Source: Virgibacillus alimentarius
GTDB taxonomy: Bacteria > Bacillota > Bacilli > Bacillales > Amphibacillaceae
Length of the DNA: 64,000 nucleotides
NCBI RefSeq assembly: GCF_000709085.1
Contig: NZ_JFBD01000010.1
Location: forward strand, 1-64,000
Reading direction: 5' to 3'
Position 1 is the stretch's first letter; every line of letters begins with the position of its first letter. The notes beneath the pieces were generated by a model that had not been told where the DNA came from, did not search any database, and was given only the letters and a program-made list of their open reading frames with translations. A program made the translations under genes and the position numbers. This document shows positions 15,539 to 53,373 of this stretch, piece after piece.

Positions 15539-15552
15539 TGATAACGCTTTCA
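15539..15552 (+). promoter_or_regulatory. cre box in the permease leader
   Basis: TGATAACGCTTTCA matches the cre consensus at 13 of 14 positions. It lies between the permease promoter (minus strand, -10 at 15619) and its start codon, where CcpA would act as a roadblock. Confidence 0.55.
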
Positions 15553-29982: not shown

Positions 29983-30033
29983 AAAGGGAGAGACCCATAT
30001 GAAATGTTCACATGGGTCTATCTCCCATTTTTA
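29983..30033. terminator. Bidirectional terminator between pepD and the NCS2 permease
   Basis: GGGAGAGACCCATATG (29986-30001) pairs with CATGGGTCTATCTCCC (30011-30026) with one bulge. A-rich and T-rich flanks on the two sides suit both strands. Confidence 0.85.
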
Positions 30034-31326
30034 CGCACTCTTCCATTGTTTCTCCTTATCAATTTTCCTTGTCAACAGCGCCTCGCACACGACGGCGATG
30101 ATGGCTCCAAATACGAGGCCGTTACTTAATATAGATGCTAGCGTTGGTGACATGTTGGTGAATGCCTCGGACGGGATAAACATTACCCCAATGCCTCCAA
30201 ATAGGGAGACACTGACAATTCGGTATAAGATTTGTTTGTTTTCCACCGAATCGAATTCCTGAAATGCCAAGCTGATAATACTTGAGAAAACGGGCAGAAT
30301 CGCTGCATATCCGACAGCTTCTGGTATCGAAGCAACAAAAGCTGTAATCGATGGCACGAAGCTTATTGCGACAATTGCAAGCGATCCGAGCAGGAACGGC
30401 AGTTTACTTGTTATTTTGGTTGTCATAATAAAACCCGCTGACCCTGAAATCGGGACGGCTCCAATTGCAGAAAAGCATCCTCCAAGCAATTGGTTCACAC
30501 CTGAAATAATCCCTGTTTCTTTCAGACGATTTTTTTCATAATGTACCTTTTCACGTTCCATAACATGTTGAACAACCTTTACAGAAGCCAGCATATTGGC
30601 GAGTAATAAAAAGGTAATAAAGACAACCATAATGACCATATTTGGTTCAATCGATGGTGTACCAAAAGCAAATATCTCCGGAAGTTTAAACGTTTCCGTA
30701 ACGTTAATAATTGGTTTTGTTAAATCAAAGAGAGAGAACATAATCCAACCGAAGACGATCGTAAATAATACGGAATAATGCCCAAATCGTGAAAGCCTCA
30801 TAAACATATAGGAAAGCACAACAATTCCAAGAGACAGTGCTAATACTGTCGGCTGAATAACATTAGAATCCCCGTTTAGTCCGGACATCCCTTGTAGAAA
30901 TGATCCGCTTAATTGAGCGACCATGAGGATTAAATACACTCCAACCACGGTTGGGCTGATGTAGCTTGCTATTTTTTCAACCCATCCGAATAAACTAAAT
31001 ACAATAAAAATAATTCCACTTAAGATAAACGCGAACTGCAGTGCTCGAAGTGTTTCCAAATGGGAACCAAATAAAACAGGGCCAAGGCCTGCATACAATG
31101 AAAAAACACCCCACCAAAGACCAGCTGGTCCTTCTTGGATGGGGAGTTTATGTCCAAATAATGTTTGTAAAATACCAGCCATACCAAGTACGAATAATGT
31201 TCGTTGCACAAATTCCACGGTTAAACCTGGACTCAATCCGTAGCTTGAAGCAACGGCAACAGGGACTACAATACTTCCCATCAAAATAAATAACGCCCAT
31301 TGCAGGGACGACAAAAATTTTTTCAA
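30031..31326 (-). CDS. NCS2-family (xanthine/uracil-type) permease
   Basis: A 431-residue nucleobase:cation symporter-2 family protein with about twelve to fourteen hydrophobic segments. Family features are the loop SGVNQLLGGCFSAIGAVPISGSAGFIMTTKI (about 270-300) and an N-terminal LFIMGSIVVPVAVASSYG. It imports a nucleobase or related compound; uracil would suit the pyrimidine locus about 10 kb away, but nothing here fixes the substrate. The start is TTG at 31326 behind TAGGAGTG. A LysR gene is divergent, 125 bases away, and probably controls it. Confidence 0.85.
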   Translation of the reverse strand: MKKFLSSLQWALFILMGSIVVPVAVASSYGLSPGLTVEFVQRTLFVLGMAGILQTLFGHKLPIQEGPAGLWWGVFSLYAGLGPVLFGSHLETLRALQFAFILSGIIFIVFSLFGWVEKIASYISPTVVGVYLILMVAQLSGSFLQGMSGLNGDSNVIQPTVLALSLGIVVLSYMFMRLSRFGHYSVLFTIVFGWIMFSLFDLTKPIINVTETFKLPEIFAFGTPSIEPNMVIMVVFITFLLLANMLASVKVVQHVMEREKVHYEKNRLKETGIISGVNQLLGGCFSAIGAVPISGSAGFIMTTKITSKLPFLLGSLAIVAISFVPSITAFVASIPEAVGYAAILPVFSSIISLAFQEFDSVENKQILYRIVSVSLFGGIGVMFIPSEAFTNMSPTLASILSNGLVFGAIIAVVCEALLTRKIDKEKQWKSA

Positions 31327-38599: not shown

Positions 38600-38719
38600 A
38601 AAGCAAGAACTCCTTTAAAACATCGTGCATCCATCATATCACAAGTAGATAGGCGGACATAGAAATAAGAGACACCCTTCCAGGTGCCCCTGCTTCTAAC
38701 GATATTCAACTGTTCATCC

Positions 38720-40432
38720 TTAGCTTCGATAACGATCATATGGCATTGGATTCCACGTTCTATATTTTATCGATTCAGAGCGCAGTGATGATGGTGTATC
38801 TTCAAAAATTTTCCGTGCTACTTCCAACTCACGCTCGGCTTCTTCCTTATCCTGGTACATATATTCATCCGAAGCAGTTTCTGGTGCTTTATCCACCTTT
38901 TCTTCCAAATAATCAATAACCATTTGCTGCTGTTTCCTGACCGATTCACGAGCATCTGCAACCCACTCTGGCTGCACCTCACGCCTGATGTCCGAAGCAT
39001 AACTAAATTCATCATAAATTTCTTTGTAAATTCGGTCCGCATTGGATCGAACATCCGTTATAGCCGCCTCTAAGTCATCAATTGTAAGTTGTTCTACCTC
39101 TAAAGGCTTCTTGCGCTTTGGTCCGCCCAGTCTTGAATATTCCAAGTAAGATGGAAATATACTTTTGATGGCTTTGCCTACAGGGTTAACGGCTTGATGA
39201 TGCTCATCGACCCCTTTTGGCTGAATACCTTGCATCGCAATCCGAGCAGATTCCGGTCTCACAATCTCCTTTGGAGGCAAGACTCCATAACGCAGCAATT
39301 CCCTAACACCAGTACCAGAAATGTTAATCCGGTATTGTTTATCATGTGGGCACGTTTGCTCCGTTGACGGGCTGTCACAACGCGTGCAATAAAATACTTC
39401 GTGGAACAATCGAATATCAATACCTAATTCATCTTCTGTAAATTTATCAAAAACAGAATGGCTGGCATATTTATCATAGAAATCCCCGATCCCAGCATGA
39501 TCCCGGCCAATCAAGGCATGCGTACAACCGTAATTTTTCATAATTAAAGCATGAAGAACGGCCTCACGTGGACCGGCGAAAATATACGTAACCCTTAGTG
39601 GTGCAAGTACAGAGCGTTCTTTCGGATAATACGTATCCATCACACTGCGGTATGCTAACATACGGAACTCAGGACGTGTATATTCGCGCTTTGCCATCTC
39701 CACAAGCGGCTGAACGAGTAATCCATCAAGCTCTTCCAGCGCATTTCGATGGATATATTCGTGACCGCGGTGCATAGGATTGGCCCCTGTAATAAATCCA
39801 CCAACGGATCTGAAATTCTTTTCCTCATAAAAAAGTTCAAATGTATCTTTCGGCTCAAGTCTTAGCTGCTCAAAAGGACCCCAGTGCACGCGACGAAGCA
39901 TCGTAATTGGTCCGCCTAAAGCAGTATCCCCCATCCGACGGTAAATCGAATCAACACCTGGGTGACTTCGATCAGTCGTTCCAAAAAGGTGAGAAGCACG
40001 AAAATCTCGATCATAAGCAAAAATGTCTTCCAATTTGAGAATCGCAACCGGCTCTTTCGTGTCGTCAGCAAGACAGACTTCATCGCCAACGGACAGCGAA
40101 TCAATGACCTGCTTATTACGGTCTCCTGTTGGTGCAAAACTAAGTGGCGTCGGCCAAATCAGACCATTTTTTAATCTGCCCTCTGTCAGAACTGATTTAT
40201 AATCTTCTTTATTCATAAAACCTTCATTCGGAGACAGAACACCCGTGGCAATCATTTCGAGCGTAATGACAGCTTCCATATCAACAACGATCATTGGCAA
40301 CTGCTTTGCTCTTTCCATCTCCTGATCACGTTTTTTGCCTGTAAGCAGACGGTTAACCAATTTCCCACCATGCGGTTGTTGGGGGTAACTCGCCATTTTC
40401 TCTTGATTCAAAACAAATGATTTTTGACTCAT
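38720..40432 (-). CDS. Divergent ATP-sulfurylase-like nucleotidyltransferase with a C-terminal extension
   Basis: The core (about 1-402) is homologous to sulfate adenylyltransferase: GRDHAGIGDFYDKY (309-321), CTRC...CPH (349-362) and SGTGVRELLRYG (372-383). The active site is altered. Where ATP sulfurylases have Q-x-R-N-P-x-H-R-x-H-E, this has TGANPMHRGHE (215-225), with the two histidines kept and Gln and Arg lost. The HPLVG-x-TK stretch reads VQPLVEMAKRE. A helical tail of about 167 residues (403-569) follows; bacterial Sat proteins are about 380-390 long. No cys genes are near. The start at 40432 has GGAGGAG 6-7 bases upstream. A cre box upstream suggests catabolite control. Normal sulfate activation is doubtful. 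Confidence 0.8.
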   Translation of the reverse strand: MSQKSFVLNQEKMASYPQQPHGGKLVNRLLTGKKRDQEMERAKQLPMIVVDMEAVITLEMIATGVLSPNEGFMNKEDYKSVLTEGRLKNGLIWPTPLSFAPTGDRNKQVIDSLSVGDEVCLADDTKEPVAILKLEDIFAYDRDFRASHLFGTTDRSHPGVDSIYRRMGDTALGGPITMLRRVHWGPFEQLRLEPKDTFELFYEEKNFRSVGGFITGANPMHRGHEYIHRNALEELDGLLVQPLVEMAKREYTRPEFRMLAYRSVMDTYYPKERSVLAPLRVTYIFAGPREAVLHALIMKNYGCTHALIGRDHAGIGDFYDKYASHSVFDKFTEDELGIDIRLFHEVFYCTRCDSPSTEQTCPHDKQYRINISGTGVRELLRYGVLPPKEIVRPESARIAMQGIQPKGVDEHHQAVNPVGKAIKSIFPSYLEYSRLGGPKRKKPLEVEQLTIDDLEAAITDVRSNADRIYKEIYDEFSYASDIRREVQPEWVADARESVRKQQQMVIDYLEEKVDKAPETASDEYMYQDKEEAERELEVARKIFEDTPSSLRSESIKYRTWNPMPYDRYRS

Positions 40433-40545
40433 GACATCTCCTCCTTGTTTCAACTACTAACTTCCCGGTTTCCAAAACTTACTCAAAAGCAATCTTGAAA
40501 AATAGTAGTCTATCTATGTAAGACCACTATTATCATAACATAATT

Positions 40546-40559
40546 TGTAACCGCTTTCA
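40546..40559 (+). promoter_or_regulatory. cre box upstream of the ATP-sulfurylase-like gene
   Basis: TGTAACCGCTTTCA matches TGWAANCGNTNWCA at all 14 positions, 114 bases before the start codon. The rest of 40433-40890 has no convincing gene; a short plus-strand frame at 40600-40794 lacks a ribosome site. Confidence 0.7.
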
Positions 40560-40839
40560 GTAGTGAACTATTCGAAAAGGTGAAATATTTTGTCTTTTAA
40601 TGACTGATTCTCCTCGATTTACGTCTGCATTAAAGGAAGTCCGATTATATGTTCAAGCACTAGATGAATCTTACTCCTTTATTCGAATTATATACAGGGT
40701 TCTTTGTAATTCCCCATATAATTATATGCAAGCAAACAGCAAAAAAGTACGATCTATTTCAATCCCACCGCGCAGACAAACAAATGATCAATAGGAGGAT
40801 GAATCAATAAAAAGCCAGGTATAAACGCTTTTCTAGTAA

Positions 40840-40890: not shown

Positions 40891-42126
40891 TTAATTTATT
40901 GTTAAATCCAGTACTGTTTGTAATACGACATTTACTCCTTTTTCACAGTCCTCCCATGACGTAAGTTCGTCTTCCGCATGGCTTTTTCCATTTACACTCG
41001 GAACAAAGACCATTGCAGATGGAATATACGTTGAAATAAATTGTGCATCATGTCCGGCACCACTGACCATGCGTTTATATGGATAACCTATCATTTTTGA
41101 AGACTGCTCAAGTGAACGAACAAGATTTTCATCAAACCAAACTGTATCTCTGTCCCACAGCTTTGTTGCTTTGACTTCGCACTTCTCTTTGCCGGAAGAT
41201 TCCGGGAGCGTTTGAATAATTTCTTCGACCTGTTTAATCGTTTCTGTATCTTGATGCCTTGATTCAAGGGTAAAGACAACTTTATTCGGGATAACCGTGT
41301 GAATATTTGGGCTAACGTTCATTCTTCCAATGGTATAAACAAGACGATCATTAAGTTGCCTCATTTTTTGACGTAGTTCTGAAATTAAATGATTTGCTGC
41401 AAATAATGCGTCTTTTCTCAGTGGCATTGGTGTTGTACCCGCATGATTAGAATCTCCGGTGACCTCTATTTCATAACACACCATACCGACAACACATTCC
41501 ACAACTCCAATCGCAAGTGACTCACTTTCCAGAACAGGTCCCTGTTCAATGTGTAACTCTAGAAACGCGGCGGCTTCCTTTAAACGATTTTCTTCCTTTC
41601 CTTCGAACCCGCTATTTTTGAGTGCTTCCCCAAATGAAATACCATTTTTATCGGTTGATTTTAACATTTCTGATTTATCAAATCGCCCGGAGATAACGCC
41701 GGAAGCCATCATTGAAGGTTCAAATCTTGCACCTTCTTCATTCGTGATATTAGCAACCACTACTGGAACCTTTGGTGTAATACCATTTTCCACCATTGTT
41801 CTGACTACTTCAAGACCTGTCACGACCCCAAGTACACCATCAAATCGGCCTCCTTTTTCTACTGAATCCAAATGAGACCCTATGACAACTGGCGGTTTAT
41901 CATTTTCCATTCCTTGTAGTGTTGCATACATATTTCCCATATCATCCTGTGTAACTGTCATGCCAAGCTCCCTACACAAGGAACTAAAATACTTTCTTAC
42001 TCTGATATCCTCATCTGAAAATGCTAGGCGTGTGACCCCATTATTTTCTGTCCTTCCAAAGTCAGCAAATAACTCCAACGTCTGTTTCAAACGTTCACCA
42101 TTAATCAGGATTTTTTGCTTTTCCAT
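40891..42126 (-). CDS. Beta-ureidopropionase / N-carbamoyl amino acid hydrolase (M20 family)
   Basis: A 411-residue Zn-dependent amidase of the AllC/HyuC/PydC group. Metal-binding motifs are GSHLDSVEKGGRFDGVLGV (about 75-93), TNEEGARF, and LHIEQGPVLE. It would hydrolyse N-carbamoyl-beta-alanine (3-ureidopropionate) to beta-alanine, CO2 and ammonia, step three of reductive pyrimidine breakdown. I start at ATG 42126, 7 bases after GGTGGG; an ATG at 42144 has no site of its own. It is the last gene of the operon, followed by a 21-bp terminator stem. Confidence 0.88.
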   Translation of the reverse strand: MEKQKILINGERLKQTLELFADFGRTENNGVTRLAFSDEDIRVRKYFSSLCRELGMTVTQDDMGNMYATLQGMENDKPPVVIGSHLDSVEKGGRFDGVLGVVTGLEVVRTMVENGITPKVPVVVANITNEEGARFEPSMMASGVISGRFDKSEMLKSTDKNGISFGEALKNSGFEGKEENRLKEAAAFLELHIEQGPVLESESLAIGVVECVVGMVCYEIEVTGDSNHAGTTPMPLRKDALFAANHLISELRQKMRQLNDRLVYTIGRMNVSPNIHTVIPNKVVFTLESRHQDTETIKQVEEIIQTLPESSGKEKCEVKATKLWDRDTVWFDENLVRSLEQSSKMIGYPYKRMVSGAGHDAQFISTYIPSAMVFVPSVNGKSHAEDELTSWEDCEKGVNVVLQTVLDLTIN

Positions 42127-42145
42127 ATTTTTCCCACCATTCATA

Positions 42146-42376
42146 TTAAAATGCGGCTTCGCGCTTTTGCTGCTGTTGAATATACAAAGTCGTGAAGTAT
42201 TTCCTGCTGTCAGGATGTGTTAAAAGCATTGTTTCCCTTTTAGGATTTTTGACTTTATTTTCAAATTCCACAATATCTCCATCTAGCGTCCCATGCGTGC
42301 TAATAATGATATAACCGCCTTTTATTAATTTGTCTATTTTAAGTTTTTCTGTTAAAAAAACATCATCGTTTGACAA
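42146..42376 (-). CDS. Small conserved-looking protein in the pyrimidine operon
   Basis: A 76-residue product starting at TTG 42376, 9 bases after a GGGGGG ribosome site. It has no signal peptide or membrane helix. The middle reads GGYIIISTHGTLDGDIVEFENKV and the end is rich in Gln and Lys. I do not recognise a family. It lies between the dihydropyrimidinase and ureidopropionase genes in the same direction, 19 bases from the latter, so it belongs to the operon. Confidence 0.6.
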   Translation of the reverse strand: MSNDDVFLTEKLKIDKLIKGGYIIISTHGTLDGDIVEFENKVKNPKRETMLLTHPDSRKYFTTLYIQQQQKREAAF

Positions 42377-42466
42377 TGAAATATCCCCCCTTAATGGCTT
42401 ACCTCTTCCCTCTCATCTTCCATATCTTAAACGATCAGGCAGTTTACACTTCAACCTACATATAAA

Positions 42467-43891
42467 TTATTTAACTAAATTCCCTGCCTTTTCAATCTTT
42501 TCATGAGCATCACGAGGAAACTTATCGCATTTCAGAAATTTACCCATTCCCGGCTTTCCAACGAACCGTTTATCTTTGATCACATACTCCCCGCGGGAAA
42601 GCACAGTTATTGGTTCGCCTGTTACCTTCATCCCTTCCAGCGCACTGTAATCCACATTCATCTGATGTGTATCAACAGAAATCGTACGTTCTTTATTCGG
42701 ATCAAACAAAACAATATCGGCATCACTACCCGGTGCGATCGTTCCTTTTTGAGGAAATAGACCAAATAGCTTTGCGGACTTTGTAGAGATAATGTCTACA
42801 AACTTATTCAAGGAAATCCGTCCTTTTTTCACACCTTCGGAAAATAACACACTAAATCTGTCTTCAACAAATGGTCCTCCATTTGGTATCTTGGAAAAAT
42901 CACCTTTACCGAGTTCTTTCTGGCCTTTAAAATCAAATGAACAATGATCAGAACCGATCGTCTGCAATTGACCGGTCTTTAAGGCATCCCATAAAATCCC
43001 TTGGTTTGACTTATCCCGTAACGGCGGCGACCAAACATACTTGGCTCCTTCAAAGTTTGGTTTTTCAAGATTGGATTGGTCGAGAACAAGATACTGCGGG
43101 CAGGTTTCACCGTATACATGGAACCCTTTGCTACGCGCATCTGCAATCTGTTCAACCGCTTCCTTACATGTTACATGCACCACATATAATTGAGAATCCG
43201 CAAGGGCGGTAAGTTTCGCAGCTCGACCTGTTGCTTCACCTTCTAGTTCCGCTGGGCGCGTTAAGGCATGGTTAATTGGGTCGGTATTTCCTTCTTTCAG
43301 CGCTTTCTCTGTTAAATAGTTAATAACATCCCCATTTTCCGCATGAACCATCACCAGACCACCATGTTCCTTGGCTGTAATTAATGTCTGAAAAAGGGTC
43401 TCATCATCAGCCTGCAAAACATTTTTATAAGCCATAAATATTTTAAAGGAGGTAACACCTTCTTCCTCAATCACCCGTGGCATTTCTTTTAATATACGTT
43501 CACTTGCTTCAGCAATTTGTAAATGAAATCCATAATCAATAACGGCTTTCCCTTCGGACTTCGCATGCCAATTGTTGAGCGCATTTTTTAGTGAACTTCC
43601 CTTTTCACTTAGGCAAAAGTCAATAATTGTCGTTGTACCTCCATGTGCCGCCGCGATGGTACCGCTTTCAAAGTCATCCTTTGTCACTGTTCCACCAAAG
43701 GGCATTTCCATATGTGTGTGAGGATCTATCCCTCCCGGCATAACATAATATCCTGAAGCATCAATAACCTCTGCATATATATCACTTAAATTTTGACCAA
43801 TTGCTCTTACTTTTTCATCCTCAATCAATACATCTGCAGTATAGGTATCCGTTGCTGTTACAATTGTTCCATTTTTAATCATTTTTTTCAT
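42467..43891 (-). CDS. Dihydropyrimidinase (D-hydantoinase)
   Basis: A 474-residue cyclic amidohydrolase. The zinc ligands are in GGIDPHTHMEMPFGG (HxH, about 58-60), the carboxylated Lys is in SFKIFMAYKN (about 150), and DHCSFDFKGQKELGKGDF marks the C-terminal metal Asp region. It opens dihydrouracil or dihydrothymine to the ureido acid. I start at ATG 43891, which has AAGGAGG 8 bases upstream; an earlier in-frame ATG at 43939 would run into preA's end. It is 59 bases after preA. Confidence 0.93.
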   Translation of the reverse strand: MKKMIKNGTIVTATDTYTADVLIEDEKVRAIGQNLSDIYAEVIDASGYYVMPGGIDPHTHMEMPFGGTVTKDDFESGTIAAAHGGTTTIIDFCLSEKGSSLKNALNNWHAKSEGKAVIDYGFHLQIAEASERILKEMPRVIEEEGVTSFKIFMAYKNVLQADDETLFQTLITAKEHGGLVMVHAENGDVINYLTEKALKEGNTDPINHALTRPAELEGEATGRAAKLTALADSQLYVVHVTCKEAVEQIADARSKGFHVYGETCPQYLVLDQSNLEKPNFEGAKYVWSPPLRDKSNQGILWDALKTGQLQTIGSDHCSFDFKGQKELGKGDFSKIPNGGPFVEDRFSVLFSEGVKKGRISLNKFVDIISTKSAKLFGLFPQKGTIAPGSDADIVLFDPNKERTISVDTHQMNVDYSALEGMKVTGEPITVLSRGEYVIKDKRFVGKPGMGKFLKCDKFPRDAHEKIEKAGNLVK

Positions 43892-43950
43892 GAGTGAATC
43901 CTCCTTATTTTTAGTAAAGAGACGAAAGCAATGATTCATTTAATGAGTTA

Positions 43951-45222
43951 TTAATTTTTGCTATTAAGCGTTTGAAGTGCTGACTGGCGTTTATTCCATG
44001 ACAATGGTGGCTCTGTCGGTATAAGTTCCACCATGTCAATTGCCCCATCAACCGGACAAACAATGGAGCAAAGATTGCATCCAACACAGTCATCTTCTCT
44101 AACTTGTAAATAATCATTGCCCTTTTCATCGGTCAGTATATCGATACATTGATGTGAAGTGTCTTCACAAGCAATATGGCACTTATTACAATTAATACAT
44201 ATGTCATTATTAATACGTGCAACGATCTTATGATTTAAATCCAAATTGCTCCAGTCGGTATATTTTTTCACTGAGACACCGATGATCTCATTTAAGGAAG
44301 AGATCCCCTTATCATCTAAATAATTATTCAACCCTTCATTCAGATCATCAATAATACTGAACCCATGATGCATTGCGGCTGTACAAATCTGTACGCCTCC
44401 TGCGCCCATCAATATAAATTCAACAGCATCCTGCCAAGTTGAAACCCCACCAATCCCTGAGATTGGAATATTAATATCTGGTTGACGTGCACATTCCCCG
44501 ACCATATTCAGAGCAATCGGTTTAACCGCTGGACCGCAGTACCCTCCATGTGCTCCCATTCCGTTCACATTTGGGATCGTATTCCATGTATCCAAATCTA
44601 CACCTATTAAACTATTGATCGTATTGATCATACTTATCGCGTCGGCTCCACCCCGCTCCGCTGCTTTTGCCGTTGCAGTAATATCTGTGATATTTGGTGT
44701 CAGTTTAGTTATTACCGGTACTTCAGCAGCTTCTTTCGCGTATAAGGTTGTTTTTTCCACTAAATCTGGATGCTGACCAACTGCTGCTCCCATTCCTCTT
44801 TCCGACATGCCATGCGGACAGCCGAGATTCAACTCAAAACCATCTACCCCTACATTTTGAACACGTTTAACAATTTCATGCCACTTTTCCCGTTTGGGTT
44901 CAACCATTAATGACGCAATGATGGCCCGGTCCGGGAAGCGTTTTTTTGTGTCATAAATTTCTTTTAAATTGTCTTCAATCGGTCGGTCAGATATCAATTC
45001 AATATTGTTAAATCCGGCAACACGCTGACCATTAAAATGATGTGCACCAAAGCGCGAAGTAACGTTCAATACAGGTTCACCAAGCGTTTTCCATACTGCA
45101 CCACCCCATCCAGCTTCAAATGCTCGCTGTACCTGATACCCAGTATTTGTCGGAGGTGCAGATGCAAGCCAGTATGGGTTTGGCGATGTAATCCCAGCAA
45201 AGTTAATACTTATATCGGCCAT
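43951..45222 (-). CDS. preA: NAD-dependent dihydropyrimidine dehydrogenase, subunit PreA
   Basis: A 423-residue dihydroorotate-dehydrogenase-like FMN protein with a C-terminal two-[4Fe-4S] ferredoxin domain (CINCNKCHIAC and CVGCNLCSIVCPV, about 340-395). The pyrimidine loop reads GCPHGMSERGMGAAVGQ. With PreT it reduces uracil and thymine with NAD(P)H. I start at ATG 45222, 6-7 bases after GGGGGAG. It lies 37 bases after preT. Confidence 0.95.
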   Translation of the reverse strand: MADISINFAGITSPNPYWLASAPPTNTGYQVQRAFEAGWGGAVWKTLGEPVLNVTSRFGAHHFNGQRVAGFNNIELISDRPIEDNLKEIYDTKKRFPDRAIIASLMVEPKREKWHEIVKRVQNVGVDGFELNLGCPHGMSERGMGAAVGQHPDLVEKTTLYAKEAAEVPVITKLTPNITDITATAKAAERGGADAISMINTINSLIGVDLDTWNTIPNVNGMGAHGGYCGPAVKPIALNMVGECARQPDINIPISGIGGVSTWQDAVEFILMGAGGVQICTAAMHHGFSIIDDLNEGLNNYLDDKGISSLNEIIGVSVKKYTDWSNLDLNHKIVARINNDICINCNKCHIACEDTSHQCIDILTDEKGNDYLQVREDDCVGCNLCSIVCPVDGAIDMVELIPTEPPLSWNKRQSALQTLNSKN

Positions 45223-45259
45223 TTTATTCTCCCCCTTTTCATACATCTACTTTCTCATT

Positions 45260-46633
45260 TCAGGCACTCTCTGTACAAGAATCCTTTAATTGCTGATGGA
45301 TGGCATATGCCGTCTCTTTTCCTTGTTGTGCGGCAGAAACTACCATTGCCTCACCAATTCCCTTTCCAAAAATAACGTCACCTGCAGCATAAACTTTCGG
45401 ATTTGATGTAACGTATGTTTCAGGATCTACCTTTACCACACCACCGTTATGTTCTAAATCAAATGCTTCAATGATGTGCATATGTCTCGTCTGACCAATC
45501 GCCTTAACGAGAATATGAACATCAATTAAAAACTCGGAACCTTTTACTTCAACTGGACGCGGGCGTTCACCATTCCCCATCTCTTTTAGCTCCATTCGTA
45601 CACACTCTATCTGTTTCAAATGGCCCCCATGATCACTAATAAGACGTTTAGGTGCAGTCAGCCATCTAAATTCCACACCATCTTGTTTTGCAAATTCATA
45701 TTCAAATTCATAGGCGGTCATTTCTGTTTCAGTACGGCGATAAAGAATCTGAACGTTATCCGCTCCTAGTCTTACTGATGTTGTAGCACCATCTATCGCT
45801 GTATTCCCTGCCCCAATTACAACCACATGTTTGCCGGCAAACTCTTTTGGATAATTTTTATTCTTTGTCTTTTCCACAAGCTCAATTGCATCGTAGATCC
45901 CACCTAAATCTTCTCCTTCTATGCCAAGCATCGGTACTGTCGACATACCTGCAGCAAGAATAACCGTATTGTAATTATCGATGAGTTCATCAGCTATCAT
46001 ATCTTTTCCAATTTCTGTATTTGTACGGATTTCAACCCCTAATTGCTCCACCTGTTCCACTTCCCATAATGAGATATCTTTTGGTAGCCGAAAAGGAACA
46101 ATACCGTGTGTGTCCAACCCTCCCGCCTCTTCTTTCCTCTCAAAAATTGTCACCTGATAACCTAGTCTTGCAAGTTCACGAGCCGCGGATAAACCTGCTG
46201 GACCACTACCAACAATTGCAACACTTTTACCATTTTTTTCACCTGCGTTAAATAATACCTGCTCATTTTTAATGGACCAGTCAGTGGCAAAACGTTGCAA
46301 ATCACCGATCATGATAGGTTTTGTAGAGTTATTTAACACACAGGCTCCCTCACATAATTCCTCTGTCGGACAAACCCGAGCACAACTTGCACCTATCGGA
46401 TTAGCTTCCATAATATTCTTTGCGGAACCTTTTAAATTTCCCGATGCAATCTTCTTAATAAAGCCGGGAATATCAATTCCGGTCGGACAGGCTTTAATAC
46501 AAGGCGCATCATAACAATAAAGACATCGGTTCGCTTCATCTAATGCTTCTTGCGCATTATAACTAGGCTTGGACTCATCAAAATTCTTTGCTAGGTCTTC
46601 AGCTGACAGCAAATTTTGCAGTAAATTTCCCAT
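45260..46633 (-). CDS. preT: NAD-dependent dihydropyrimidine dehydrogenase, subunit PreT
   Basis: A 457-residue GltD-like flavoprotein. The N-terminal domain carries Fe-S cysteines (CLYCYDAPCIKACPTGIDIPG and GASCARVCPTEELCEGAC, about 37-105). FAD binding is at VAIVGSGPAGLSAARELARLGYQVTIFER (about 138-166), and NAD(P)H binding at HVVVIGAGNTAIDGATTSVRLG. It passes electrons from NAD(P)H to PreA. The ATG follows AGGAGG. Upstream, a 21-bp AT-rich inverted repeat separates it from the broken symporter gene. Confidence 0.95.
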   Translation of the reverse strand: MGNLLQNLLSAEDLAKNFDESKPSYNAQEALDEANRCLYCYDAPCIKACPTGIDIPGFIKKIASGNLKGSAKNIMEANPIGASCARVCPTEELCEGACVLNNSTKPIMIGDLQRFATDWSIKNEQVLFNAGEKNGKSVAIVGSGPAGLSAARELARLGYQVTIFERKEEAGGLDTHGIVPFRLPKDISLWEVEQVEQLGVEIRTNTEIGKDMIADELIDNYNTVILAAGMSTVPMLGIEGEDLGGIYDAIELVEKTKNKNYPKEFAGKHVVVIGAGNTAIDGATTSVRLGADNVQILYRRTETEMTAYEFEYEFAKQDGVEFRWLTAPKRLISDHGGHLKQIECVRMELKEMGNGERPRPVEVKGSEFLIDVHILVKAIGQTRHMHIIEAFDLEHNGGVVKVDPETYVTSNPKVYAAGDVIFGKGIGEAMVVSAAQQGKETAYAIHQQLKDSCTESA

Positions 46634-46675
46634 TGATGGACCTCCTTTTGAGAGTTAAATAGTAAAGAAATCAAG

Positions 46676-46727
46676 AGCATTAGTTAAAATATTTTATATG
46701 CTATATTAAAATATTTTCACTAATGCT
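46676..46727. promoter_or_regulatory. Large AT-rich inverted repeat upstream of preT
   Basis: Arms 46676-46696 and 46707-46727 pair over 21 bases with one mismatch and a 10-base loop; the outer parts read AGCATTAGT and ACTAATGCT. It lies 43 bases upstream of preT. A second dyad, ACAAAGTGT/ACACTTTGT, lies about 46783-46820. It may be an operator or an intra-operon terminator. Confidence 0.6.
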
Positions 46728-46854
46728 TCACTAAAGCCTACTCCTTTTATTATAATTTTTAGAATTAATTATATGCTAGACAAAGTGTAAAAATGCTTTA
46801 AAGACGATTAGACACTTTGTATTTATACGATTAGTGCTGATATAAAAACACTCA

Positions 46855-48321
46855 TTACTCATTTTTAAAAGATAGAATGGCTTTTTCAAAGCGTTCTACC
46901 ACTTCTTGATCCCTTGGTGATGTTGTTAAACTTACTATAATAAAAAAAGCAAAGTTAATTAAAAGCCCCCACATTGCTGGATCTAACCCGAGTGGACTTG
47001 ATAATCCCGGAATAAAGGTAAACAAAATAATGAACAAAATACTTACAGTTAAGCCAGTGATAGCGCCATATGCATTTGATCTTTTCCAAAATAGTGCACC
47101 GATTGTGGGGACAATAAGTTGTGCTGTACCACCGAATGCAATCAAGCCAATAGTAACTAAGAGACCTGGAGCAAACAAAGTAAGAAAATAAGCTAATATA
47201 GAAAATATAAGTAGAAAATATCTTCCCATCTGTATTAATTTACTCTGAGATGCTAATGGGTTAGCATACCTTTGATAAAAATCTTTTGTCATTACAGCTG
47301 ATACTGCGTGAATTTGACTGTTAGCCGTTGACATTGCTGCCGAAGCTCCACCAGCTAGTATTAGCGCGCCGATAATAAATGGTGCATACTCCATAACCAT
47401 TAAAGGAAGTATTTGATCCGCATTCACTACACCTGGCATTTTCAATACTCCAGTCCAGCTAACAAGCACAGAGCCAATATAAGTAATCGCTACAAAGGAA
47501 ATTAAAAATGGCATTAAGTTAAATAATTTACCATTTTTTACAGCGTACATACGTAACCAAAGTTGAGGGCCCATTAGAGCTCCAATCGCAGTAATAAAAC
47601 ATAAAGAAATCCATGCACTGTATCCGGAGGACCCCTCAGGTCCTGGGAGAGTAAGATGTTCCGGATTCGACTCCAACATTTGTTTAAACAGAGCTATTGG
47701 TCCTCCAACTGTCTTGGAAATATAAAAGCCAACAAAAAGCAATCCGAAAAACAATAGTGCCCCGTATATAATATCTGTCCATGCTACTGCCCGCATTCCA
47801 CCAATCCAAACATAAATTATGATAACTGTATAAAACAGAAGAGCGGCTAACCAGAAAGGAATAATTCCGCCAGAAGCCACCTCTATTAAATATGCACCAC
47901 CTGTTAGTTGAATTTGTAGATAGGGTATAGTGAATATAATAACTATCAAACCAACAATAATACGTACTTTTTCATTATTATAGAAATCCCCTAATAAGTC
48001 AGAAGGCGTTACATAGTTAAACTTTTTTCCTAAATACCAAATTCTTTTTCCTACAAAAAAATACAAAAAACCAAATAATATATTCCACGCAAAAGCAGTC
48101 AAGTAGACTGGCCCCTCGATATAAAATGAGGCATTAGATCCAAGAAAAGCGAATGCGCTCCACCATGTGGCTGATACAGTAAAAAAAGCAGCTACAGATC
48201 CCATATCTCTCCCCTAAATAAAATAATCATCACTGGAACCTTTTGACTTTGCCGATGCAATAAATCCTATTATTAAAGGGAGGATCATAAAAAGAGCAAT
48301 AATAATAACTCCAATAGTCAT
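46855..48321 (-). pseudogene. SSS-family sodium:solute symporter interrupted by an in-frame TAG
   Basis: Reading from ATG 48321 (ribosome site AAGGGTGAG) gives a first membrane helix (MTIGVIIIALFMILPLIIGFIAS), then SSDDYFI, then TAG at 48214-48216, and in the same frame GRDMGSVAAFFTVSATWWSAFAFLG and about 440 further residues of an intact sodium:solute symporter. The stop falls in the conserved D-Y-F-x-x-G-R motif, and TAG is one base from CAG. A short GGGGAGA precedes the ATG at 48204, so re-initiation could make a protein lacking helix 1. A DUF3311 gene lies just upstream, the usual partner for this class. Confidence 0.88.
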
Positions 48322-48347
48322 AAATACTCACCCTTAAAAATTTACTT

Positions 48348-48551
48348 TTATTTTCCCCAGTTCAATTTATACGCAATAAAAAAGATAGTGGTACAAAAAG
48401 CCCACCAAAACAACACCCAGGCAACTAAGAAGGGAAGGCCAAAAATCATTGGTTCTATGGAATTAGCAAGTAAGATAAGAGGACTCTCTAACATAACTAA
48501 ACCAATAACGGGCGCCACAATAAAAAAAATCCGTAATCCATTTCTTTTCAA
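48348..48551 (-). CDS. DUF3311-type small membrane subunit of a symporter
   Basis: A 67-residue protein with two membrane helices, matching DUF3311 (PFLVAWVLFWWAFCTTIFFIAYKLN). Genes of this family sit before SSS symporters and are thought to help them. I start it at TTG 48551, 7 bases after AAAGGAAG; a frame from 48602 lacks such a site. It ends 26 bases before the symporter's start. Confidence 0.8.
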   Translation of the reverse strand: MKRNGLRIFFIVAPVIGLVMLESPLILLANSIEPMIFGLPFLVAWVLFWWAFCTTIFFIAYKLNWGK

Positions 48552-48677
48552 ATTAATCTTCCTTTCTGTGTTAAATATAAAACACGGGAGATCTACTGAC
48601 ACAAAAAGATATCAAACAATTAATGAAAACACATGGAGTTAAACACAGACTATCAGTCTTATTTGGTCCTAATTTAT

Positions 48678-49820
48678 TTAATATTCAAGTGCTAACATTT
48701 TAAATATCTCAACGCATTTCTCAATTTCTTCTATATATACCCACTCGTCAATTGTATGGGCTTGTTCAAGATTTCCTGGGCCAAAACAAATTGCATTTTT
48801 ATTATTTAATTTCCATGAAACCACAGCTGCATCAGTGTATGCTACATATCCACCTTGAACAGGTTCGGTATTTAGAATCCTTTTATATCCCTTTGATAGC
48901 AATTTAACCACCTCAGCATAGTCAGGTACTTCAACTGGCGGGCGCTGTAGACCAAGATTATTAATCTCCACTTTAGCTCCTGGTATTCTTGCTAGACCAC
49001 GATTAACTGACTTTTCTATAATTTTATTTGCAGTTTTATCATCCAAAGGCGGAACAATTCTAAAGTCTATTTCAGCTCTTGCTTGGTCAGGAACTACATT
49101 CGTTTTGGTCCCACCTGCTATCTTTCCAATGGATAACAAAGATTTCCCTAAATATTTGTTATCAAAAGGAAGACCATTCACAACTGATTTGATTTCACAT
49201 AAAATTTCAGCCAATGCATGGTTCGCATCAACTCCTCTTTCTGCATGACCGCCATGTGATGACTTTCCGTATGTTTTTATTTCATACCACATAACACCAC
49301 GGTGAGCACGAACAATTTCCAAATTTGTTGGTTCCGGTGCAATAGTCATCGTTGAAGAATCTATATAATTGGATTGTAAAAATTTCATTACACCTTTCAT
49401 TCCAGGTCCCTCTTCGTCAACAGATACCACAACAATAAAATCCCCGGGTAACGATGGTTCTTTGCTTGCTTCTTTTAAGGCATAAAGAGCCGATGCAAGA
49501 CCAGACTTCATATCAGCGGATCCACGTCCAAATAGTTTATCACCTACTATTTCGCCGCCAAATGGATCTTGTGTCCATTCCTCACCGGCCGGTACAGTAT
49601 CACAGTGAGCAATTAATACAATAGGAGCACGTTTTCCCTTTCCGGGAATTCGAGCAATAACATTGTTTCGATTCAGCTCAACTTCCTGTAATTGATAGGG
49701 AATATCTTCTTTTTCAAGCCATTCACAAATAAATTCAGTTACTCTTTTTTCGGTATTAATAGGATTTCCGGAGTTTATTTTAACTAACTTTGAGGTAAGT
49801 TCAACAGCCGAATGTAGCAT
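48678..49820 (-). CDS. M20-family peptidase / deacylase (ArgE/DapE-like)
   Basis: A 380-residue M20A-type metallohydrolase. Zinc and catalytic motifs are LIAHCDTVPAG (about 70-79), LFGRGSADMKSGLA, and VDEEGPGMKG with the general-base Glu. The lid domain has the THAERGVDANHALAE-like dimer His region (SSHGGHAERG). It hydrolyses an N-acyl or peptide bond. In this cluster it might act on an N-acylated or carbamoylated intermediate, but no specific substrate is shown. It lies downstream of a terminator, so it probably begins a separate transcript that includes the symporter. Confidence 0.85.
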   Translation of the reverse strand: MLHSAVELTSKLVKINSGNPINTEKRVTEFICEWLEKEDIPYQLQEVELNRNNVIARIPGKGKRAPIVLIAHCDTVPAGEEWTQDPFGGEIVGDKLFGRGSADMKSGLASALYALKEASKEPSLPGDFIVVVSVDEEGPGMKGVMKFLQSNYIDSSTMTIAPEPTNLEIVRAHRGVMWYEIKTYGKSSHGGHAERGVDANHALAEILCEIKSVVNGLPFDNKYLGKSLLSIGKIAGGTKTNVVPDQARAEIDFRIVPPLDDKTANKIIEKSVNRGLARIPGAKVEINNLGLQRPPVEVPDYAEVVKLLSKGYKRILNTEPVQGGYVAYTDAAVVSWKLNNKNAICFGPGNLEQAHTIDEWVYIEEIEKCVEIFKMLALEY

Positions 49821-49892
49821 TAAAAGTCCTCCGTTTCTTTCTTGTTATCTATCGTTATAACCTAATTTTGTACGACGAACCATTTTATACGA

Positions 49893-49941
49893 GAAAATCA
49901 GTCATTGGAATCCTGATTTTGGAACCAGGATTCCAATGACT
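49893..49941 (-). terminator. Terminator after the aminotransferase gene
   Basis: A perfect 16-bp stem, AGTCATTGGAATCCTG (49900-49915) with 49926-49941, is followed on the minus strand by GATTTTC. It splits the pyrimidine locus into two transcripts. Confidence 0.85.
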
Positions 49942-49943
49942 AT

Positions 49944-51290
49944 TTAAAGTTGTGCAAAAGCCTTCTTCACCGTATTCACTATAAACTTTAAATCGTCATC
50001 TGTTATACTAAGCGGTGGACTAAGTTGTAATATATTATTAAATCCGGCAACCGTATCGCCATTCTTTCCAATAATCAATCCTTGTTTCTTACAAAAACCA
50101 ATGATTTTATCAACCTTTTCTACGGCAGCTGGTTCTTTTGTATCCTTATCTTCAACCAATTCAATCCCCATCATTAAACCTTTACCACGAACATCGCCAA
50201 CATTCGGATGATCTTTTAGATCAGTCATCTCCTCCAAAAGTTTTGCTCCTAGTTTAGCAGAGCGCTCCACAAGATTCTCTTTTTCAAAAATTTCAATATT
50301 TCGAAGCGCAACCGCACAGGCTGATGGATTTCCCCCATATGTGTTAACATGACGGAAATGATTATATTCACCTTCTTCTTTAAATGCTTCGAAAATCTCT
50401 TTTTTTACAGCGGTTGCTGATAATGGCAGGTATGCACTTGTAATTCCTTTAGCCATTGTGACAATATCCGGTTTTACACCATAATGCTGAAATCCAAATC
50501 GTTTACCAGTCCGACCAAAACCGCAAATTACTTCATCAACGATTAATAAGGCACCATGCTTTTCACAAATTTCCTTGACACGTGGCAAATAGCTTTCATG
50601 TGGTATCAAAACACCGCCACCTGTAATAATAGGTTCCATAATGACTGCTGCAATTGTTTCATCAATTTCCCATGTCATGACTCGATCAATTTCATCCGCA
50701 CATGCTAGACTTTGTTCTTCCAATGTACCTTTATACGGACTTCTGTACATATCTGGTGGTGTAACGTGAAGAAATCCTTGTGCCAAGGGCTCATATCGGT
50801 ACTTTCTTTGTGCTTGACCTGTCGCAGCAAGAGATCCCATCGTATTTCCATGATACGCTCGATATCTGGCAATAAACTTATGCCGACCACCCTCTCCTTT
50901 TTGCTGATGGTACTGACGAGCCATTTTAAACGCTGTTTCATTTGCCTCCGATCCACTATTGGAAAAAAAGATCACATAGTCGTCGTTAAGCCATTCATTT
51001 AGCTTTTCGCCAAGCTCGATTGCCGGAATATGACTTTGGGTCATAGGAAAATAAGGAAGTGCTTTCATTTGATCGTATGCTGCTTCGGCCAGTTCCTCCC
51101 TTCCGTATCCAACATTTACACACCATAAACCAGACATTCCATCCAGATATTTTTTTCCATTCATATCTGTTATCCACGCACCATCCGCTTCAGTAACTAC
51201 CATGGAGGATGCACCAGCATTGTAGCGGCGCATCGCATGCCAGATATACTTAGCATCTTTACTTAATAAATCATTTGATTTTGTCTCCAT
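49944..51290 (-). CDS. Class III omega-aminotransferase, probable beta-alanine:pyruvate transaminase
   Basis: A 448-residue PLP enzyme of the beta-alanine/taurine:pyruvate type. Features are FFSNSGSEANETAFKMARQYH (phosphate cup), YRAYHGNTMGSLAATG, VDEVICGFGRTGKRFGFQHYG, and the PLP Lys in VTMAKGITSAYLPLSA (about 284). It would move the amino group of beta-alanine (or 3-aminoisobutyrate from thymine) to pyruvate, giving malonate semialdehyde. It is 23 bases after the semialdehyde dehydrogenase gene in the same operon, which supports the assignment. The ATG at 51290 has an AGGGAGGAAAT site. Confidence 0.9.
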   Translation of the reverse strand: METKSNDLLSKDAKYIWHAMRRYNAGASSMVVTEADGAWITDMNGKKYLDGMSGLWCVNVGYGREELAEAAYDQMKALPYFPMTQSHIPAIELGEKLNEWLNDDYVIFFSNSGSEANETAFKMARQYHQQKGEGGRHKFIARYRAYHGNTMGSLAATGQAQRKYRYEPLAQGFLHVTPPDMYRSPYKGTLEEQSLACADEIDRVMTWEIDETIAAVIMEPIITGGGVLIPHESYLPRVKEICEKHGALLIVDEVICGFGRTGKRFGFQHYGVKPDIVTMAKGITSAYLPLSATAVKKEIFEAFKEEGEYNHFRHVNTYGGNPSACAVALRNIEIFEKENLVERSAKLGAKLLEEMTDLKDHPNVGDVRGKGLMMGIELVEDKDTKEPAAVEKVDKIIGFCKKQGLIIGKNGDTVAGFNNILQLSPPLSITDDDLKFIVNTVKKAFAQL

Positions 51291-51313
51291 GTTATTTCCT
51301 CCCTCTCCTGTTT

Positions 51314-52774
51314 CTACAGGCGTGATGTAATCATTTTCTTTTTCGTATAAAATTCCACCCCATCTTTTCCATTCGTGTGCAAATCACCATAAAAGGAGTC
51401 CTTCGCTCCAGAAAAAGGGAAAAATGCCATTGGTGCAGGTACGCCTAAATTTACTCCCAACATGCCAGCATCAATTGTTTCCCGGAAAGTTCGAATATTG
51501 CCTGCATCTCTTGTGAATAAACACGATCCATTTGCAAATTTTGATTCGTTTGTAGTTTCAATCGCTTCTTCTAATGAATCAGCACGGACAATAGATAATA
51601 CCGGAGCAAAAATTTCTTCTTTCCAAATGGTCATATCCGTTCCGACTCCATCAAATATCGTCGGCCCTACAAAATATCCATTACTATTATTTGCTTTATC
51701 TTTTCTTCCGTCCCGTACTAGTTTCGCCCCTTCGCTTATACCCGTTTCTATATAATTGACCGTTTTATCCTTATGGTTATCGCGAATAACAGGTCCTAAA
51801 AACACACCATCATCAAGGCCATTACCGATTTTAATTTCATCTGCTGCTTTTACTAATTTTTCTACCAGTTGATCACCGATCTCACCAACCGCCACAACAA
51901 CAGAACAAGCCATGCAGCGTTCACCGGCTGAACCATACGCAGCACTAATGATCTGTTCTACTGCCTTCTCTACATCGGCATCAGGCATAACAATCGAATG
52001 ATTTTTTGCTCCTGATAACGCCTGCACACGCTTACCATGAGCAGCTGCTGTTTCATATACATGTTTTGCTACCGGTTGTGAACCAACAAACGAGATTGCT
52101 TTAACATCCTTATGTTCTAACAAACCGTTAACTACGTCATGTGCACCATGAACAATGTTAAGCACACCACTTGGCAGACCAGCTTCTATCAATAATTCTG
52201 CTAGGCGATTTGCTAAAATTGGCGTTCGTTCGGAAGGCTTCATTACAAAGGTATTACCACACACAATTGCAAGTGGGAACATCCAGCAAGGTACCATCAT
52301 TGGAAAATTAAATGGCGTAATTCCCCCTACTACACCAACTGGATAACGGAACATTTCGGAGTCAATATCACTCGCAATGGTTGATAGTGAGTCGCCCATC
52401 ATTAAACTCGGTGCTCCTGTTGCAAATTCAACACACTCAATCCCGCGTAATACTTCACCATAAGCCTCCTTATAGGCCTTTCCATTTTCTTGAGTGACAA
52501 GTTTTGCCAGTTCCTCATGATTTTCAACTAAAAGCTGTTGGTATTTGAATAGAATTCTTGCTCTTTTTGGAACAGGTGTTTTACTCCAGGTTTTGAAAGC
52601 TTCTTTCGCAGCACCTACCGCATTATCTAAATCTTCTAAAGTTGAAATAGGTACTTGCGCGAGTATTTTTTCTGTTGCTGGGTTTGGTACATCTTGATAT
52701 TGTTGCGTATTTGAATCCATCCATTTCCCACCTACAAAGTTTTTAAGTTTTTGTGTTTTTATTGATACATTCAT
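51314..52774 (-). CDS. mmsA: (Methyl)malonate-semialdehyde dehydrogenase, CoA-acylating
   Basis: A 486-residue aldehyde dehydrogenase of the MmsA/IolA type. Typical stretches are [65 protein letters not shown], and the nucleophile in [17 protein letters not shown]. This class makes acetyl-CoA from malonate semialdehyde or propionyl-CoA from the methyl form, without an external general-base Glu. It ends pyrimidine breakdown; thymine-derived propionyl-CoA could enter the prpCDB pathway of this window. The ATG follows AGGAGGAAT. Confidence 0.94.
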
Positions 52775-52878
52775 ATTTTATTCCTCCTATTATTGTTCAA
52801 CTATTCTGATTATAATTTTTATAAATGATCGATTCATTAGACAAAAGGTTAATTGATTTTATTTTTTATTGAACATCT

Positions 52879-53373
52879 TCACAATGGATGATACTTGCCA
52901 GTTACTGCATCAACAGTTAACATAAATTTATTTTCTAAGTAGATATCTCCCCCTTCTACAATCCAATATGGGCGATAAAATATTTCCTTCATTGTCAATA
53001 TAATCGGTGGTGGGGAAAAAACCTTCATTTTATATGAAATTGTGTCATAGACAAACTTTTTAGCAATTACTTTCGCATCCGCGGATTTTATTTTTCCCGG
53101 AATAATTGCATCCGTTTGTATTGCTTGTTTTTCAAAACAAGGAAACGTATTAACAATTGCTCCGATTCCGTTAATCCCGTCAATTGTACAACCAATCATC
53201 CCGCCCTTTGGATGAAAAAGACTTTTTCTTTCTAATTTATATTCAAAATAGTAGTAGGGATAGAACACCAATTGATTAACATGAAACAAGTTATTCGCAT
53301 CTGTTTTTTCAAATACAAGTTTTAATTCATGATGATCAAAACGCACATTTTCGGAATAAATGATCTTATTCAT
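52879..53373 (-). CDS. Hypothetical protein overlapping the symporter gene
   Basis: A 164-residue soluble protein. Its C-terminal part (FYRPYWIVEGGDIYLENKFMLTVDAVTGKYHPL) resembles a PepSY-type beta segment, with aromatic residues before the DAVTGK turn. No signal peptide or metal motif is seen. Its start overlaps the end of the symporter gene by 4 bases, so it is co-translated, and it lies 104 bases before mmsA. I do not recognise the family; a symporter-linked or redox helper role is possible. Confidence 0.7.
   Translation of the reverse strand: MNKIIYSENVRFDHHELKLVFEKTDANNLFHVNQLVFYPYYYFEYKLERKSLFHPKGGMIGCTIDGINGIGAIVNTFPCFEKQAIQTDAIIPGKIKSADAKVIAKKFVYDTISYKMKVFSPPPIILTMKEIFYRPYWIVEGGDIYLENKFMLTVDAVTGKYHPL

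Follow-up and report, generated by a model that had tools for sequence, protein, structure and literature searches.

A tailed ATP-sulfurylase homologue with an altered acceptor site, possibly acting in short-chain monocarboxylate metabolism

As judged from their sequences, the relatives of ATP sulfurylase (Sat) that carry a long C-terminal tail are a separate, sharply conserved family, which is labelled sulfate-activating in databases but whose probable role is the activation of a small organic acid or some part in an acetate or lactate pathway. The member studied here, P0001, is encoded in the window (the whole stretch of 64,000 nucleotides that was analysed) and almost certainly takes no part in the sulfate assimilation of this organism. 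We rather favour some role for it in the metabolism of short-chain monocarboxylates; the full reading, namely a CcpA-controlled adenylyltransferase of this metabolism misannotated as Sat, is put forward tentatively, at a little under an even chance.

The gene and its protein

The gene lies in a reading frame on the minus strand that is open from 38720 to 40453 with no interruption, and its start codon is the ATG at 40432, 7 nt past the AAGGAGG. The features of the gene and of its product are:

38720..40432, minus strand: gene of the tailed ATP-sulfurylase homologue (P0001, 570 aa), stop codon at 38720-38722
40440..40446, minus strand: ribosome binding site AAGGAGG, from the sequence
39215..40384, minus strand: ATP-sulfurylase-like core, residues about 17-407, from Pfam and the structural match to 8a8d
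39758..39793, minus strand: altered nucleotide/acceptor motif ITGANPMHRGHE, residues 214-225 (canonical QT-RNPVHRAHE)
39680..39712, minus strand: altered mobile loop QPLVEMAKREY, residues 241-251 (canonical N/H-PLVGETKxDD)
39344..39388, minus strand: zinc-binding motif CxxC...CxH, residues 349-363, from the alignment and the known Zn site
38723..39223, minus strand: C-terminal helical tail, residues 404-570, from the 54-row alignment and an AlphaFold2 model

The core is complete for the ATP-sulfurylase domains and for the overall fold, as shown by Pfam (PUA_2 at residues 19-180, the catalytic ATP-sulfurylase domain at 189-400) and by the structural match, where the model built from 54 orthologues (pLDDT 82, pTM 0.79) has 8a8d as its nearest structure, with Z 40.9 and 2.1 A over 374 aligned residues (model residues 17-405). 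The zinc-type Sat (PF01747 and PF14306; Thermus 1v47, Methanothermococcus 8a8d/8a8g) shares with the tailed protein the same core, the Zn motif, HxxH, GRDHAG and SGTxxR, at 35-37% identity and Z 38.5-40.9; what sets the tailed protein apart is the replacement of the Gln/Arg and of the loop Asp, an insertion in the RNP loop, the tail, and hosts that are mostly without APS kinase or reductase. The zinc ligands C349, C352, C361 and H363 are invariant in both the tailed (82) and the canonical (30) sets, and the Zn site is known in thermophilic ATP sulfurylases (PMC10322725).

Two other known systems invite comparison. The bifunctional Sat/APS kinase (NF004040) and the fungal 1i2d with its APS-kinase-like domain are similar in length (about 570 aa) and likewise extend beyond the core at the C terminus; however, the tail of our protein is predicted to consist of long helices and is unrelated to theirs by any test made, no APS-kinase (PF01583) match being found by Pfam in P0001 and NF004040 matching the core only (245 against a cut-off of 669). 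With the HxGH nucleotidylyltransferases CoaD and NadD, which act on phosphopantetheine and NMN, the catalytic fold is common over ~155 residues at Z about 9-10, and the HRGH of the tailed family fits their HxGH, where canonical Sat has HRAH; but only the catalytic subdomain is shared, and overall the tailed sequence belongs with Sat.

The tail was given 167 residues in the preliminary description, and this agrees with our results: the point where the canonical enzymes end corresponds to residues 403-412 of P0001, which leaves a tail of about 160-167 aa, conserved at 46-73% identity with 32 invariant columns in the 54-row alignment. A tail-only AlphaFold2 model consists mostly of long helices (pLDDT 79.8). 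There is no Pfam or NCBIfam match to the tail, nothing significant among the PDB sequences (best E 0.56), and against solved structures residues 404-570 reach a best E of 1.1 by Foldseek, with none below 1, and a best Z of 6.9 by VIA, which is inside the noise range for helical models; such a missing match does not establish a new fold. Conservation throughout the clade suggests that the tail serves the new function. A Pfam match to HP0268 with an E of 0.19 was disregarded.

The altered active site

In an alignment of 82 tailed and 30 canonical proteins, the latter from the bacterial family of the window, both changes noticed earlier, in the QxRN motif and in the HPLVG-x-TK stretch, are present in every member of the tailed set. 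GFITGANP[LM]HRGHE occurs in 82/82 tailed proteins against the canonical GFQTRNPVHRAHE in 30/30, with a one-residue insertion (FITGANP against FQT-RNP), so that in all 82 the Gln has become Ile214, the Thr is kept as T215, the Arg is replaced by Gly216/Ala217, the Gly being inserted before the Ala, and the Asn and Pro are kept. Since it is invariant in 82/82 orthologues, the altered motif is no product of chance or sequencing error. In the mobile loop, HPLVGxTKxxD reads QPLVExAKxxY in 82/82, that is, GxxKxxD became ExxKxxY by changes of Gly to Glu and of Asp to Tyr; E245, K248 and Y251 are invariant in the tailed proteins, compared with G, K and D in 30/30 canonical ones. Moreover, the invariant Arg of MRYAGP is lost in the tailed set, which has YIFAGP.

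In the ATP sulfurylase of A. vinosum (PMC3779200), the ligands of the APS sulfate are Gln199, Arg201 and the Ala299 amide, and those of the alpha-phosphate are Thr200, the NH of Arg201 and Asn202; Gly295, Arg296 and His298 bind the ribose, and Asn202, His205, His208 and Arg365 bind PPi. Upon closing, Arg201 is bonded by Asp237, which belongs to the GxxKxxD loop. The counterparts of Gln199 and Arg201 in P0001 are Ile214 and Gly216/Ala217, and that of Asp237 is Tyr251, while the equivalents of Thr200, Asn202, His205, His208, Gly295, Arg296, His298, Ala299 and Arg365 are kept in 82/82. Because the residues for ATP, ribose and PPi and the four Zn ligands are all kept, the change is limited to the acceptor side, the partner Asp being lost along with its Arg. 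To judge from the sequence, P0001 is quite probably active in nucleotidyl transfer. The loss of two ligands is no proof of lost sulfate activity, and a new pocket could hold sulfate differently.

The sulfur context of the host genomes

The genome of the organism (99.8% complete, 146 contigs) has a single PF01747 gene, the tailed one, and in the whole genome there is no match to PF01583 (APS kinase) or to PF01507 (CysH/CysD, PAPS_reduct); thus the earlier remark that no cys genes lie near the gene holds, and for these families it extends to the entire genome. A survey of 119 genomes of the window's own family, in which tailed genes (228-244 bits) and canonical genes (326-347 bits) form distinct score classes, found the tailed gene in 21, the canonical gene in 61 and both in 4, which amounts to mutual avoidance (Fisher p 0.0014). 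APS kinase is present in 1/17 tailed-only genomes against 57/57 canonical-only ones, and the CysH/CysD-type family in 1/17 against 49/57; both are missing in 16/17 tailed-only genomes, the search covering PF01583 and PF01507 with the dissimilatory APS reductase (AprAB) outside it, and neither occurs in any of the 41 genomes that have neither a tailed nor a canonical gene. These tallies therefore demonstrate that the tailed gene does not track the sulfate pathway. The preliminary description had considered that the absence of a second sat, together with a need for this gene during growth on sulfate, would speak against a changed substrate. A second sat is indeed absent, which is uninformative; growth on sulfate by the APS route is not expected, because APS kinase and reductase are absent as well.

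Clade, distribution and transfer

A search for homologous loci gave 80 loci with 65-82% identity across nearly the full length including the tail, in hosts from Bacillaceae, Planococcaceae, Thermoactinomycetaceae, Arenibacter, Roseovarius, Pararhodobacter, Alcaligenaceae, Marinobacter, Aliidiomarina and others. The phylogeny of tailed homologues and their neighbours, proposed earlier as a check, yields one clade: in the core tree, whose reference rows have long branches that make the stem length meaningless so that the grouping alone is used, the tailed rows are a single group with SH-aLRT 100, and the recurrent neighbours are usually monocarboxylate genes. The gene is rare outside Bacillaceae, being found in 2/397 other Bacillota genomes, and no further tailed gene was found among 396 Pseudomonadota genomes or among 369 genomes of the class of Paenalcaligenes. 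High identity between phyla in a gene so scattered in its distribution speaks for horizontal transfer.

Several loci deserve separate mention. Two Arenibacter species (Bacteroidota; L057, L062) have the same flanking order and proteins 71% identical to the window form, and their tailed genes are nested among those of Bacillota in the tree, an inter-phylum transfer. The 16.7-kb sequence L121 (NZ_CP081281.1, 'Phaeobacter inhibens plasmid') has the order ActP, LuxR, sensor kinase and tailed gene with frameshifts; in gene order and sequence it looks like a piece of an Alcaligenaceae chromosome and is probably a contaminating or misassigned contig, so the Phaeobacter match was left out as a separate lineage. 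Some genomes have two diverged tailed copies with their own neighbours each (L065; L036 and L064, which belong to one genome; G063), and a lactate MFS transporter lies beside one copy or between both; the copies look as if they had parted in substrate.

Carbon-linked neighbours

Most tailed loci, including the one in the window, show no functional neighbour, and the MctC homologue of the window's organism is on a separate contig (L146). Where a recurrent neighbour is present, it is usually a monocarboxylate gene. In 16/80 loci, a DUF485-like small protein and an MctC/ActP-type symporter are encoded directly upstream on the same strand, often preceded by LytS/LytT and a second symporter pair; MctC is the best match of this upstream symporter, at 605-632 bits and below the cut-off of 670. 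LytS/LytT of B. subtilis responds to pyruvate and controls pyruvate uptake (PMC5626966). In Alcaligenaceae, the tailed gene lies beside genes for ActP (over one ActP cut-off), a LuxR-type regulator, an SLC5-type sensor kinase and a CBS/nucleotidyltransferase-type protein; SLC5-type kinases are of the kind in the CrbS/R system, which governs acetate use (PMC5715377). An L-lactate MFS transporter scoring over its cut-off adjoins the tailed gene in Cerasibacillus, Virgibacillus and a Bacillales MAG, lying in the MAG between two tailed copies. In another class of Bacillota, a lactate MFS transporter is directly upstream in two genomes and an acetate-CoA ligase (985 bits against a cut-off of 725) in one (L134), with LytS/LytT alongside in the two longer loci. 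In Roseovarius, an operon of a LivHMGF-type ABC transporter lies near a regulator most similar to RamB, below the RamB cut-off.

Since these arrangements are separate, shared descent cannot explain all of the linkages. The symporter adjoins the tailed gene in 8/119 genomes from 5 genera. All these linkage counts, like the cre counts below, come from related and not fully independent genomes. Across genomes the co-occurrence with MctC is weak (13/21 with the tailed gene against 35/98 without, p 0.048). The same kinds of neighbour genes are those of the CrbS/R-ActP acetate-switch and LytS/LytT pyruvate-uptake loci; in the parts of the literature covered, no Sat-like component of these systems is found, nor any relevant Sat homologue tied to acetate, CcpA, DUF485 or QxRN changes.

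As separate observations, the LytS-like kinases beside the tailed gene at L133:11579-12931 and L134:12534-13886 have a weak SpoVT_C match and no 5TM sensor match. A protein of 426-448 aa, which we take to resemble cyclic 2,3-diphosphoglycerate synthetase, is encoded next to the tailed gene in L036 and L063.

Promoter and carbon control

Upstream and downstream of the gene, the following elements were found:

40546..40559, minus strand: cre (CcpA operator) TGAAAGCGGTTACA, an exact match to TGWAANCGNTNWCA
40532..40560, minus strand: promoter-like CTGAAA-17-TATGAT with extended -10 (TG), a pattern match whose -35 overlaps the cre
38668..38691, minus strand: terminator-like hairpin past the stop codon, a pattern match only

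The 14/14 cre reported earlier is thus exact, read from 40559 to 40546. Two exact cre matches were found in the 64 kb against 0.2 expected; the other one, TGATAACGCTTTCA, lies at 15539-15552 of the window. The promoter-like pattern occurs at 5 sites against 5.8 in shuffles. Among 63 Bacillota orthologues, counted without the truncated locus L053, a cre with at most 1 mismatch lies within 250 bp in 8, against 0.72 expected, and all 8 are copies without a symporter directly upstream. The hairpin 3' of the stop codon would end the transcript after this one gene, and from these sequence elements a single-gene, glucose-repressed transcript is likely.

A possible mechanism and its alternatives

The ATP-sulfurylase fold has been regarded as reserved for sulfate and analogues of it. 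In the explanation that we consider best, the enzyme would transfer AMP by the retained reaction core of ATP sulfurylase with sulfate no longer being the substrate: an acceptor would attack the alpha-phosphate of ATP, PPi would leave, and the most likely acceptor would be a short monocarboxylate (of the acetate, propionate, pyruvate or lactate kind), giving an acyl-adenylate that the helical tail would help to hand on. In an alternative step, the AMP would be placed on a partner within the same pathway. The gene would form a transcription unit of its own, which CcpA would repress as long as a preferred sugar is available. That the acceptor is a short-chain monocarboxylate has perhaps two chances in five, or slightly less, in our estimation; the specific scheme in which carboxylate and ATP give acyl-AMP and PPi and the tail performs the second step, a transfer to CoA or another nucleophile, is on the unlikely side. 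If the latter is true, there would be a route of acid activation (acetate or lactate type) unrelated to acetyl-CoA synthetase and acetate kinase. An organic acid as acceptor would be new chemistry for the ATP-sulfurylase fold, spread between phyla. As members of the family score above the cut-off of PRK04149, reconstructions from sequence would credit the hosts with a first step of sulfate activation that is probably absent. A replacement of acetyl-CoA synthetase was also considered and is weakened, as the organism has a candidate AcsA: with this acetate-CoA ligase-like gene (533 bits, below the cut-off), acetate activation in its genome needs no second enzyme.

Of the other explanations, a regulatory or protein-modifying role seems unlikely, though less so than those that follow: AMP would be put onto a protein with which the enzyme cooperates in acetate metabolism, for instance acetyl-CoA synthetase or the symporter, or ATP/PPi would be sensed on behalf of that protein, with the tail as a docking arm. 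The conserved tail, made mostly of long helices with no enzyme-like fold, would suit such a role, as would the acetate-CoA ligase or symporter genes that directly adjoin and the frequent occurrence of the tailed gene alone in a genome; against it, the partner genes are not constantly present, and we know of no precedent within this fold. Rather less probable is that the protein is still an ATP sulfurylase, holding sulfate by other residues (the inserted loop, or Glu, Tyr, Arg or His of the mobile loop), with APS used outside assimilation or with ATP synthesized in reverse from APS and PPi. The NCBIfam model PRK04149 (sulfate adenylyltransferase) does place P0001 above its cut-off (398.8 against 387), the fold and all the ATP/PPi residues are retained, and four relatives hold both a tailed and a canonical gene; but TIGR00339 places it below (304.9 against 322.95), both sulfate ligands and the partner Asp are replaced in every member, APS kinase and the APS/PAPS-reductase family are missing from nearly all tailed-only genomes in the search described above, and sulfur genes are not among the neighbours.

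The preliminary description had proposed 'another oxyanion or acid, under carbon control'. Another substrate fits everything tested, since the sulfate ligands are lost with the ATP/PPi residues kept and APS-using enzymes are absent, and so does carbon control, since a cre lies over the promoter here, cre sites are more frequent than expected upstream of orthologues, and the monocarboxylate linkage is recurrent; the oxyanion is the part that fares worse than the organic acid, because the pocket region has lost positive charge with two invariant Arg (those of QTRN and MRYAGP) and the linked genes are of acetate and lactate rather than of oxyanions. We consider it improbable that AMP is transferred to an oxyanion other than sulfate, whether inorganic or organic (phosphite, phosphonate, sulfonate, arsenate, selenite or similar). 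The intact nucleotidyl-transfer core would allow this, and known ATP sulfurylases accept several oxyanions, as in MtATPS, where molybdate is a competitor of sulfate (PMC10322725); genes for oxyanion transport or redox reactions, however, are not recurrent beside the tailed gene. The least probable reading, and an improbable one in itself, is that of a paralogue without catalysis that serves a structural purpose: the lost sulfate ligands would agree with it, but HxxH, GRDHAG, SGTxxR, the Thr and the Asn are invariant in 82/82, and the identity of ~65% between phyla over the whole length indicates strong purifying selection on the catalytic residues.

Surroundings of the gene in the window

An apparently complete cluster for reductive pyrimidine degradation occupies 40891-54941 of the window, with an N-carbamoyl amidohydrolase, a dihydropyrimidinase, PreA/PreT-like dehydrogenase subunits, an omega-aminotransferase, a methylmalonate-semialdehyde dehydrogenase and two sodium/solute symporters. 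Membership of the tailed gene in this adjacent cluster was rejected as its main context: a promoter-like site, a cre and a terminator-like hairpin belong to the tailed gene alone, and the cluster is not seen among the recurrent neighbours of the orthologues. An NCS2 purine/pyrimidine permease is encoded at 30031-31326 of the window.
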